A stretch of 64,000 nucleotides of DNA from Rhizophagus irregularis (taxonomy: Eukaryota > Glomeromycota > Glomeromycetes > Glomerales > Glomeraceae), in contig NC_089430.1 of the NCBI RefSeq assembly GCF_026210795.1, positions 4,588,001-4,652,000 on the forward strand. The letters run 5' to 3'. Within the stretch, counting starts at the first letter, position 1; each line of letters opens with the position of its first letter. This document shows positions 55,819 through 64,000 of this stretch, piece by piece. The notes below the pieces were generated by a model. The model was given only the letters and a program-made list of their open reading frames with translations. It was not told the origin of the DNA and made no database searches. The translations under genes were made by a program, and so were the position numbers.

Positions 55819-58800
55819 CTATTGAATCTTGAGTTTATTTAATAAATCTTGTTTCATTTCCGGAAAATCATTTTTACTCCAATTATCCTTAATAATTAAT
55901 TCTTCAATTTCTTCTTGAACTTCATTAAAATTAGCATTAAAATATCTGAAAAAATTAATTAATTATAAATCAGAAAAAAAATCAAAAAAAAAAAGTTTAA
56001 ATAAATAATTTAATAAATAGACATACAATACTTCAGGAAACCATTTTCGCCAACGTCTCTGACACGGTAATAGGTAAAATAATTCAATATCAGCTACAAC
56101 CTACAAGAAATTGAAAATTTTAGTATTTTCAAGTGCAAGAATTTTATATTAATTAATAACGGTATTATACCTCCGCCATCATTTTCCAATATGAAGCTTG
56201 AACATCATCGTCTTTCTTCACCTCACTAAATAGCGTAATAAAAACATTCAACATAAATATAATCATTATGACTATAAAGGAACCCATCAATATTACTAGT
56301 GACGGATTTTTTTCATATGGCCAATTGGAAAATGAACTCGTGTCGCCTAATAATTGGATAAATTAACTATCGTTGAATACTTTTTTTAGTGAAAAAATAA
56401 ATATAAGTATACCTGTGAGTAATAAACTCGTTGCAAAAAATGAAGTAGAGAAGTCTGTAAACGTGTTTGTGTTCTCATCAGGTTTTTGTAAAATAAATAA
56501 ATTATTATTTAAAACGTTAGTAGTTTCAGTAGTTTCATTTTCATATACTTGATAAGTAGGGATCAAATTCCAAGGATTATTAGGGTCATCGTTAACTATA
56601 CGTTTGTCTAAAGAATAACTCGATTTTGGTGATAATAGAACATAAAACGCGAGTGCGTAACTAAATAAAATCATCAATATGATGCAAAAAAAGAAAAACC
56701 GTAGCTGTTCCGAAATTTTAATGAGAATTATGTAACATGGACCATAAAATCTAGTTATATTAAAAAATGATAATAACTTCAAAAATAAAAATAGGCATGA
56801 AAAAGACAGATATGGAATTATCTGATAATTTATGTCACCCGCTTTACTTGTTCGAAGCCAAAGAACAGAAGTGTAAATCGTAAACGAATACACAAATATA
56901 CCTATAATATTTTAAGCATACTGTATGTAAATAATTATATAATTTTTATAATTAGTGAAAATGACGTGAAGTAAAATTAAACATTGATTTCATACTAAAC
57001 ATCAGCTCATACTCTCTGAGAAAATTACGGGTGTCACGAAACATCTTGTAAGCAAACTTACGAAGCATAAAAAACAGATAAAAGAATCCAAATGTAATCG
57101 AAATTCGCAGAAATTGTTCTCTATGAGCTGCATATCTATACTGAGATTGATCAAAAATAGCTGTATTGGCAGCAAAACTAAAGCTCACAGCTAAAAATGC
57201 GTGTCCAGACATGATTATAATGTGATAAACATATCCATAGGTAAGCCATTTAAAATTAATTAATTCTCGTCCATTCAATGATTTATAAATATCTCTGTTC
57301 ATTGTTTCAACAAATGGACTAGGTTGAGGTAGAAGAAGATCAACCCACCATTTATAATCTTGTGGGTAATTAGCGAACTTAATATAAGGAACAATAAAGG
57401 TAATTTTTGGTATATCTATTGGAGTCAATATACTTTCTGAAGAATTACTGCGATCTTTATAGAATTTTTTATACAATTTATGCAATGGATAACCATACTT
57501 TGTCCATAAAATAGATCCAGTTAGATTAACCATTTGAGGAGGACTTGTATAATGACCTCGATATTCTATTTTGTAAGAAGGAGAATCAATAATCAGATTA
57601 GTTTCTAATGAAAATCTTTCAATATATTTTGGAAGACATTTATTCAGCAATGGCATTGCAGAAGTAATAATGCTTAAAAATATTCTGTTGTTTCTCAAAT
57701 CTTGTTTAAAATGGTTCATACAATTTTTGTAGATATCATCTATTAATTCTAAATCATGTTCTTTGATTGCGAATACTAATAATTTGGCACCATATTTTAT
57801 AAGACTCAATTTATTATTTATTAACTCTGAAACCCATTTGTTTAATTTAAAGCTATCATGATTTGGTAAAGGTAAAGTAATTTCTGAGAATACTTTTTCA
57901 AAATCCTGTGACAAAATCATATTCAAATTCATATAATAAAAATATGTTAAAGAAACATTATTATTAAAATAATAAATAAAAAGACCGATTGATGTTAATA
58001 TAATAATTTCATCGCCATTAATTAATTTGATTCCAAGTAAACATCCTTTTCCAAAATTATGCTTTTCAATTTTTGTGCAAGTTAAGCTCCATTTGCTACT
58101 ATCATTAAGTTTTTTAAAAACTTGCAATACAATTTTAGCGTCATTAATTCTTATTTTCCACTTAATATTATTATGAATTAACTCATCATCATATTTACTT
58201 GTATAACCATTTAAGGATACAACTTTCTTGACTTCTCGGAATAATGCGCGTAATGTATCTTTATATGGATTAAATAAAAGAATTTTCAAATGTTTGAATG
58301 CATCCTTGATTTTTTCAGTATCATCACGTCCATCAGAATTTAAATATATATTCCAGCATTCAATAATATTTTTATCATTTTCATCACTTAATTTATCATA
58401 ATCTTCTAACGATAATTTTTCTTCGATTTTAATCTTCAGGAAATTTTTATTTAGAATTCCATATGCGTATTTTATACATGTTGCCGAAATATTTCGGCTA
58501 TTTCGCCCACATGACAAACTCTTCAAAGCAAAATCATCTGATTTCATAGATCTGGCTGAAATTAGGCTTCAAATAGGTTAATCCGGGTCTGAAGAACCTA
58601 TGAAAGAACTTTTGAGGAATTTCGACCAACTTACATAATTTCGGCAGGGCTCTGGAATTTCGGACAACCTATATTTAATATATGGCCAAAACTTTAAAGT
58701 CCGATTCGAAATTATTACAGATTATGCCGAAATTTTCTGAAGTCTGCTAAAAGTTGCTGCAGATCTGGCCCAAATTATCTGAGGTTTAAAAAATTTTATT

Positions 58801-60081
58801 GATATATCTACAAGTAGCTATATTTTGGTGCCGAAATGCGGCCGAAATTGAAAAAAAGTTTCGGCAACATGTATAGCGTATTTGTTTGTAATTTGAATGT
58901 TATTTGGAAGAATTTCGGATTGATATTCATTTGATAAATGATTTAAATGGTTTATGTATACTTTCCAATAATATTTCATGATGGAATTCCAAATTTTACT
59001 ATTATGGTCGAGTAAAGTAAATAGTAAAGGATATAACGTCAAATCAATATGCTTCAATATATTATATAATGAAATTTCTAATAAAAAAAAGAAATAAATT
59101 GAGTATCAATAACAATAAATTCATTAAATTAATATAAAAATATATACCATCATTTATATCCAAAGTAGCAATAGGAATTTCTAATTCAATTGAATAAATA
59201 ACAATTTTATTCTTTTTATTAGCATTTTTATCGTTGGATTCGTCATCCCTGATATTTTCATATTTGATTCCTAGACAAATAAAATTTTCATTGCTTGAAA
59301 TTTTGATATCTTCTTCTTCAAACTATTGACAAATAGTAAATTAGTTACAATATTTCTCAAAATAACTTTAATGAGTACTCTTAATGCATTTATTACCTTG
59401 TAATCCTCATCATCGGCAAAGATTCTTGCACTTTTTTCAGTAACTATATTCCATTCATAGATGCAATTACTTGAAAGCAAATAAAGTTTATTACATTTTG
59501 ATATGCTAATTAATTCAAAATCTTGGGGTATCTCGTAAATTTGTTTACACATCCATTTGCCATTTTTAATCTGTGTGGAATAAATCCGAAGAATTTTTTG
59601 ATTCAACACTTCATTACATATAATAAATTCGCCTTTTACATTAAAGGTACAATGATTCTGATAAATATTTTCATCGTAATATAGTTTAATCTCGTGTGTG
59701 TTATTATTCATATCGACTATTTCTGATAAAATAATAAAAATATTTTAAATAATCAGAATCAAATAAACGTCGGTGCTATCCAACAAATTATTGTTATCAC
59801 TTACTAGGTTTATTATTACAAATATAAACGAGCTTTTTATCATCGGAAACGCATATTTTGTCCAGATTTTTGATCTCACTAACTGTAATATGTTTTTCCT
59901 TGTCTGTGCCAAATATATTCCAACCGAAAATTGATTTATCTTTCTGATTATAAATAACAAGGTATTCTTCATTTGGTGATACTTCTATTTTTGTAATAGG
60001 TTTGCTTTTATTGATATCAAGATCAGCTCTCTCGATATTATTATCGTTGATTTCTCTGATTTCAATGGGGAAGTCGTTCAT
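55819..60081 (-). pseudogene. Beta-propeller/six-TM ion-channel-like gene, split by a transposon
   Basis: Eight exons on the minus strand: 60081-59805, 59722-59397, 59322-59148, 59077-56996 (containing the transposon), 56901-56413, 56346-56171, 56100-56027 and 55945-55819. Phases fit at every junction. Exons 1-3 look WD40/propeller-like (KSKPITKIEVSPNEEYLVIY, FGWNIFGTD, ISISKCNKLYLLSSNCIYEW). Exon 4 ends with two membrane segments. Exons 5-6 add four more, with a pore-like TSLLLTGDTSSFSNW before the last (VILMGSFIVIMIIFMLNVFI), followed by a charged coiled tail (QEEIEELI). This is a TRP/ion-transport-like layout. Exon 4 is cut by a 403-bp element; without it and one target copy the exon length fits the frame, for 1104 aa. 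As it stands the frame stops at 58818. An ATG at 58547 inside the element could start the channel half alone. Confidence 0.8.
58473..58875. mobile_element. 403-bp DNA transposon with 17-bp TIRs and 8-bp target duplication
   Basis: The ends are exact inverted copies (TATACATGTTGCCGAAA at left; TTTCGGCAACATGTATA at right). They are bordered by GCGTATTT at 58465-58472 and again at 58876-58883, a perfect 8-bp target-site duplication. Eight-base duplications are typical of hAT-like and some other cut-and-paste elements. There is no transposase frame, so it is non-autonomous. TTTCGGC/GCCGAAA motifs recur internally. It lies in exon 4 of the channel-like gene, and perfect ends and TSD imply a fairly recent insertion. 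Confidence 0.92.
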
Positions 60082-63421: not shown

Positions 63422-64000
63422 CTAATTATGTTGGATCTTGAGTTTGTTTAACAAATCTTGCTTCATCTCCGGAAACTCATTAGTATTCCATTTGCCCTCA
63501 CTAATTAATTCTTTAATTAATTCTTGAGCTTCACCAAGTTCTACATCAAAATATCTGAAAATTTGATTCAGTAAAAAAATTAAGTAAATTTATTTAAACA
63601 TATAAATAAATGAATATACATACAATACTTCAGGAAACCATTTTTGAAAACGTCTCTGATGTGGTAACATGTAAAATAACTCAATTTCGGACATAGCCTA
63701 CAAGAAATTGTTAAATAATTTAGTAATTATAACAATTCATGAATTCCAATATTATGCTAAATAATGGTATTATACCTTCGCTTTCATTTTATACACTACG
63801 CCTAGAATGTCATCATCATTCACCTCACCGTACAATGTGATAAACACATTAATAATATATATGATCATTGCGAACATGAATAAAACCATCAATATTACAA
63901 GCTCCGGATTATCAACAAATGACCAATTGGAAAATGAACTTGTGTCACCTAATAATTAGATAAATTAACTATCGTTGAATACTTTTTTTAAATGAAAAAA
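63422..64000 (-). CDS. Second ion-channel-like gene, C-terminal exons only (cut by window end)
   Basis: Three exons on the minus strand, 63948-63776, 63697-63624 and 63554-63422, match the last three exons of the gene at 55819-60081 in order and phase; the middle one is identical in length (74 nt). They encode GDTSSFSNWSFVDNPE (the pore-side motif), a membrane segment (LVILMVLFMFAMIIYIINVF), then FYMLPHQRRFQKWFPEVL, and a tail (QELIKELI, FPEMKQDLLNKLKIQHN). The intron before 63948 still resembles that of the first copy. Upstream exons lie beyond 64000. This is a tandem paralogue in the same orientation, and this visible part is undamaged. Confidence 0.82.

Follow-up and report, generated by a model that had tools for sequence, protein, structure and literature searches.

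Which agent placed a 403-bp sequence with in-frame stops inside an otherwise open exon of a Rhizophagus irregularis gene, and was that gene intact when the sequence arrived? The locus lies in a window of 64,000 nucleotides (the whole stretch of DNA analyzed, C2:4588001-4652000), and searches of the organism's own genome covered 146,748,485 bp in 32 contigs. The sequence at 58473-58875 is a miniature inverted-repeat transposable element (MITE) inserted in a putative channel-family gene, as an earlier note on this DNA had observed. A recent insertion of this MITE, mobilized by a hAT transposase and breaking a gene that had been intact, is the explanation in which we place high confidence. The borders of the element, its target-site duplication (TSD), its copies elsewhere, an empty paralogous site and a partner element that shares its ends and whose transposase gene can be read are all evident directly from the DNA. 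The insertion is a well-resolved example of a class already familiar, and the system is not of a new kind.

In the proposed course of events, a hAT-superfamily transposase would have acted in trans on the MITE, and C13:312081-316498 or an element closely related to it is the very probable source of that enzyme. The MITE would have entered a long minus-strand exon of a putative TRPV-like channel gene that was presumably intact beforehand. Repair of the staggered cut would have duplicated the 8-bp target GCGTATTT.

The element and its ends

The outer 17 bp of the 403-bp element are perfectly inverted at both ends (TATACATGTTGCCGAAA) and are bordered by the duplicated octamer GCGTATTT, so that the clean insertion with intact ends and an exact TSD described earlier was borne out. 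The exact 17-mer of the terminal inverted repeat (TIR) occurred 47 times in the genome, versus 0 for a reversed control pattern; allowing up to 2 mismatches, the counts were 483 and 16, and the frequency of the 17-mer is far above chance. In the open reading frame (ORF) list, no frame lying wholly within the element reaches 50 aa. It is short, without a transposase, ended by exact 17-bp TIRs, present at many sites and accompanied by a TSD of fixed length, the features by which a MITE is recognized.

The empty site and the host gene

With the element and one TSD removed, a single open frame runs through ...NNIQITNKYAYGILNKNF..., that is, ...ILPNNIQITNKYAYGILNKNFLKIKIEEKL.... A tandem paralogue 7.5 kb away (L073) reads ...ILSNNIQITTKYAFGILDDDFLKIKFEEKL... 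at the same place in a 645-aa open frame, and its DNA, 82% identical across the site, contains the octamer AAATACGC (the TSD on the coding strand) once and lacks the element. The in-frame ancestral reading proposed in the earlier note is therefore matched at the DNA level by an empty site in the tandem paralogue. Three other aligned family members (L074, L075 and L076) likewise read through the site. A 35-base exact empty-site pattern gave 0 matches in collections of genome contigs and viral contigs, and 0 matches in the R. irregularis genome with up to 3 mismatches.

The host gene is a putative member of a TRPV-like channel family. Its own match to Ion_trans is weak and below the cut-off (17.3 bits versus 25). 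Among the four family members, L075 scored above the cut-off (29.9 bits), L076 below it (19.1 bits), and L073 and L074 had no match. In R. irregularis, 32 TRPV-like genes have been reported (Manley et al. 2023; PMC10234402), and the assignment was made because of this report, the weak host match and the match of L075. A 288-aa query from the remainder of the interrupted host exon (56955-58464) matched 112 stretches in the genome, where some genes yield two stretches. Family members cluster at C2:4645600-4654026, C15:3815732-3979321 and other places.

Reading frame and splicing

The element and one TSD together add 411 bp (403 + 8). As this length is divisible by 3, the insertion preserves the reading frame but interrupts it. 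With the element in place there are four in-frame stops, all within the element: the frame extends 18 residues into it, then meets TAG at 58820 and afterward three more stops, and the product would end at the first of these. A search for GT..AG pairs that keep the frame and leave no stop returned 11, none of which excises precisely the 411 inserted bases. Because of the four stops and the lack of a precise GT-AG removal, the channel part is probably lost; the gene would then yield a truncated protein without its C-terminal channel part, which suggests loss of gene function.

The alternative that survives best, although we consider it improbable, is that the element acts as an intron or is otherwise spliced out and that the gene still makes a channel. 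The same 11 pairs (for example, donor GTATAC at 58961 with acceptor 58520) offer it a route, and a neighboring host intron, delimited by eye, starts with GTATAT, close to the donor GTATAC. However, nine of the 11 pairs would also remove 86-162 nt of the exon upstream, two have their donor (GTTGCC) within the TIR, and eight retain 25-94 nt of the element.

Sister copies and age

BLAST of the element against the genome returned 40 matches. Nineteen copies were aligned, 16 of which are 402-403 bp long and depart from the family majority in no more than 20 columns; the 8-bp TSD is exact in 15 of these 16 and carries one mismatch in the other (L046), and all octamers are different. When 28 loci were scanned for paired ends, ends with an 8-bp duplication (0-1 mismatches) were found at 21; paired ends with an acceptable TSD were not found at the other seven (L047, L048, L051, L052, L054, L055 and L056). 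Cousins of 260, 270, 275, 294, 376, 392 and 492 bp have similar ends and an 8-bp TSD (0-1 mismatches). Ungapped comparison of the 100-bp flanks of the 19 copies (left with left, and left with inverted right) gave no similar pair, and the copies were therefore taken to be separate insertions. Further copies with the same ends thus exist, and the finding that the earlier note had named as fatal to its reading, an absence of such copies, did not materialize. Its description of the locus as a rare case fared less well, as the genome contains at least 16 insertions that are nearly identical, this one included.

The window copy is separated by 2 of 403 bases from either of its two closest sisters. 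Within the set of the 14 youngest copies it carries no private change (as is true of seven of the 14), and therefore the insertion is recent relative to the family as a whole; it may well be recent in absolute terms too. Shared variants separate five young copies (L039, L040, L042, L043 and L044) from the others, so more than one source copy was probably active in the 403-bp family. Because the frames are open on both sides and the element has no private changes, it is reasonable to suppose, as had been proposed, that the host gene was functional until recently.

An old insertion, fixed in a gene that was already dead and is now an inactive pseudogene, is unlikely, slightly more so than splicing. 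In its favor, the gene family is large and possibly redundant; but the host frames are open on both sides of an element without private change, and its TSD is exact, whereas older copies have visibly decayed.

A probable partner element with a predicted hAT transposase

An element of 4,418 bp (C13:312081-316498) was found among the exact-end matches without a near mate. One of its ends is identical to the MITE end at 17 of 17 positions and the other at 15 of 17, and it is flanked by the exact TSD GTTTATGC. Its minus strand encodes a predicted protein with DUF659 (PF04937, E = 1.7e-21) and Dimer_Tnp_hAT (PF05699, E = 4.2e-6), both above the Pfam cut-offs. Using two GT-AG introns (GTAAAT..ACTTAG, 92 nt; GTAAGA..TTTTAG, 72 nt), a transposase of 706 aa without a stop is predicted; as a frame is retained with 33 intron combinations in all, of which five have consensus-like sites, this protein sequence is provisional. 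Degenerate repeats flank the transposase gene on both sides (L059, 680-1100; L066, 1164-1533): Tandem Repeats Finder detected the array beyond the 5′ end of the gene, with 3.2 copies of a 117-bp unit, and the second, on the other side of the gene, was identified by eye only.

The C-terminal part of the predicted transposase showed weak similarity to Hermes transposase chains (E = 0.0029-0.0052), and a PDB sequence search with the N-terminal 370 aa gave no meaningful relative (one match, E = 0.35). Transposases of the hAT superfamily have catalytic D, D and E residues within an RNase H-like fold. The glutamate of the SCERSFS motif in the predicted transposase aligns with SAASERTFS of Hermes and, by our own count, is presumably at the position of Hermes E572; two candidate catalytic aspartates (in DGWTN and SDNAPD) were picked by eye only. 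Among the candidates scored in the genome, the N-terminal 370 aa had one match at 100%, and the next was at 71%.

For relatives of this transposase, 111 of 874 first-look candidates were scored, and of the six next-best loci after C13 (on C21, C28, C12, C16, C7 and C6) ends were inspected at the first three. The three inspected relatives (C21:2074734-2077763, C28:369284-372328 and C12:2911263-2914311), with 61-79% aa identity, have nearly identical TATACTTGTRGCCGAAA ends and exact 8-bp TSDs. Stops lie in the N-terminal part of the C28 and C12 relatives, and one lies in the C-terminal part of the C21 relative. The cousins of 260, 270 and 492 bp are 82-91% identical to the ends of the C13 element over 44-158 bp, the 270- and 492-bp cousins at 85-89% over 108-158 bp.

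The TSD length of 8 bp that characterizes hAT elements was found at the 403-bp copies, the cousins and the transposase elements; a transposase with the same ends was found for the partner, and for the MITE by way of the shared ends alone. The hAT identity of the MITE and partner system is well supported by these features, and the hAT-like autonomous partner that the earlier note had called for has its counterpart in the C13 element with its predicted hAT transposase. Pairing of the 403-bp MITE with this element is likely, and the C13 partner may have mobilized the MITE.

Target sites were compared using 29 octamers (17 of the 403-bp type, eight from cousins and four from transposase elements); where the two octamers of a copy differed at one position, the left one was taken, and L032, L048, L050, L053, L063, L064 and L065 were excluded. 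The octamers follow a palindromic, GTYYRRAC-like pattern, with G first or C eighth in 26 of 58 cases (P = 3.8e-8) and T second or A seventh in 32 of 58 (P = 0.0015), both versus flank composition. The pattern resembles the GTnnnnAC target preference known for hobo and Hermes, and it also recalls the target of the P element.

This palindrome, together with a TIR start unlike the hAT consensus, raised the question of whether the element belongs to another superfamily with 8-bp TSDs (P, Merlin or some Mutator-like elements) and is hAT-like in looks only. Such an origin was rejected and is very unlikely, as all four inspected transposase loci share the ends, have exact TSDs and encode transposases akin to one hAT protein.

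Several points weigh against the account as a whole. The 403-bp family and the C13 element are alike over just 19-32 bp or so at their ends, and because the shared sequence is this short, the case for pairing them draws on the ends, the length of the TSD and the cousins. Other transposases recognizing these ends may exist. The usual start of a hAT TIR is YARNG, a commonly cited consensus that is not strictly defining; the start TATAC fits it at positions 1-2 and misses it at positions 3 and 5. Finally, imprecise splicing around the element stops is possible on paper. Misplacement of a repeat into the gene during assembly can hardly be credited, for although the assembly was made from Nanopore reads (PMC10234402) and repeats are the usual place of errors, a misjoin would not yield an exact TSD whose single copy occurs in a paralogue, and 16 copies behave alike.

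Comparison with known systems

Known hAT-superfamily MITEs, such as mar in Drosophila and BniHAT in Brassica nigra, are mobilized in trans by hAT transposase and resemble the present element in being short, non-coding and ended by TIRs. The likeness is one of general features; here the ends begin with TATACATG in place of the usual hAT start, and the lineage is a different one, Glomeromycotina. Hermes- and hobo-type hAT elements resemble the system in the C-terminal region of the partner transposase and in the 8-bp TSD with its GT....AC tendency; they differ in that the similarity of the partner is as weak as the E-values given above and its N-terminal region is without a meaningful PDB match by sequence. 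Oliveira and Corradi (2024; PMC11075540) catalogued MITEs and hAT elements of R. irregularis, in which hAT families are present, and defined the MITE class as sequences of 50 bp to 1 kb with TIRs and without transposase domains; the passages of it that were consulted contain no account of this insertion.

C-to-T changes in transposon copies

Four old 403-bp-type copies, L049 (C1:7381026), L050 (C11:2937059), L051 (C15:3462740) and L053 (C19:3288294), were compared with reference copy L003 and showed 235 C:G-to-T:A changes, 11 changes in the reverse direction and 22 transversions. In L049 and L050 the C-to-T changes occur in all four dinucleotide contexts and on both strands; deamination at CG alone is insufficient, because CA, CC and CT contexts are changed as well. 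The changed sites of these two copies overlap at about chance level (27 versus 23.0 expected, P = 0.11), and a fixed sub-lineage behind them was rejected on this ground. Private changes in the 14 young copies comprised 14 C-to-T versus 3 others. In a second hAT family (L077-L096, 20 copies, 516 bp) there were 69 C-to-T changes versus 4, 35 of them in CG and 34 elsewhere; these copies were chosen from the transposase match list, and nine of the 20 carry stops, which favors C-to-T. The 11 stop-free copies had 10 versus 1. The young private changes and the second family both speak against an excess limited to a few copies.

Opposing a directed process, when the 14 young copies were counted per copy, with inherited variants repeated, there were 30 C-to-T changes versus 53 others, and their shared variants comprised 7 versus 9. 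Spectra were balanced in L052, L054, L055, L056 and L058, which seem to form a different subfamily not descended from L003. Between the flanks L097 and L041 there were 40 and 28 transitions by direction and 9 transversions. The control was the host gene compared with its paralogue, where third positions showed 55 transitions versus 42 transversions and fourfold sites 5 to 5; this is a thin comparison of one pair. The CpG ratio of the window was 1.10, with no depletion.

A transposon-directed C-to-T process acting in all contexts, either resembling repeat-induced point mutation (RIP) or coupled to methylation, may mutate transposon copies here, a suggestion that we put forward tentatively and regard as doubtful. 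According to Dallaire et al. (2021; PMC8647823), no RIP signatures were detected in Gigaspora margarita or Mucoromycotina, and R. irregularis transposons carry CG methylation. Among the papers listed by literature searches, none was recognizable as describing the window insertion or RIP in R. irregularis. If such a process is real, the insertion and its sisters of graded age would form a natural clock for it. The mutation spectrum of older copies is a lead on genome defense in arbuscular mycorrhizal fungi.

Significance

The genome of R. irregularis is repeat-rich, with about two-thirds of its transposons unclassified (PMC11075540), and the fungus was long considered an ancient asexual (PMC8647823). 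One family is described here with all of its parts visible, from exact borders and sisters of graded age to empty sites and a hAT element with the same ends. The MITE and the C13 element would constitute a two-component system whose hAT activity is testable in yeast. Polymorphism among strains could be followed directly by PCR at the insertion site, and if the host gene is lost, this one member of a large putative channel family would provide a small, testable example of presence/absence variation.

Features in the window

Table 1. Positions of the inserted element and of the channel-family genes, numbered from the first letter of the window.
Feature	Position	Strand	Basis or remark
Left TSD, GCGTATTT	58465..58472		same octamer present once at the empty site of the paralogue
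Non-autonomous element (MITE), 403 bp	58473..58875		sequence reading, BLAST copies, ORF list
Left TIR, TATACATGTTGCCGAAA	58473..58489	+	17-mer read and counted genome-wide
Right TIR, exact inverse of left	58859..58875	-	17-mer read and counted genome-wide
Right TSD, GCGTATTT	58876..58883		exact match to left copy
Host gene, interrupted exon upstream of insertion	58884..59077	-	start by eye from TTATTAG acceptor, approximate
Host gene, remainder of interrupted exon, open to 56955	56955..58464	-	ORF list, family search
Host gene, two more open stretches (56366-56911 and 56168-56362)	56168..56911	-	weak Ion_trans in the second, below the cut-off; match of L075 above it is in the equivalent part
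Host gene, N-terminal open stretches	59150..60081	-	borders by eye, approximate
Tandem paralogue, last open stretch	63770..63955	-	main exon beyond the window at C2:4653160-4654026, site empty

Other insertions of the family

Across 17 reconstructed empty sites, the longest frame was 576 aa in the window, 979 aa on C14, 505 aa on C12, 182 aa on C8 and at most 135 aa at the other 13. The C14 copy (L044, C14:919583-919985), near-identical and 403 bp long, lies within a Helitron gene at the ATP-binding loop, flanked by Helitron_like_N on one side and PIF1 helicase on the other; no empty site for it was found with up to 3 mismatches. The C12 copy (L004, C12:2776781) has an exact TSD and sits in an F-box/leucine-rich-repeat frame, seven codons short of its end. 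The C8 copy (C8:2312359) has a related site at C12:3372969-3373006 that is empty and contains GTCCAATC once, and the flanks of the two are 77-86% identical.

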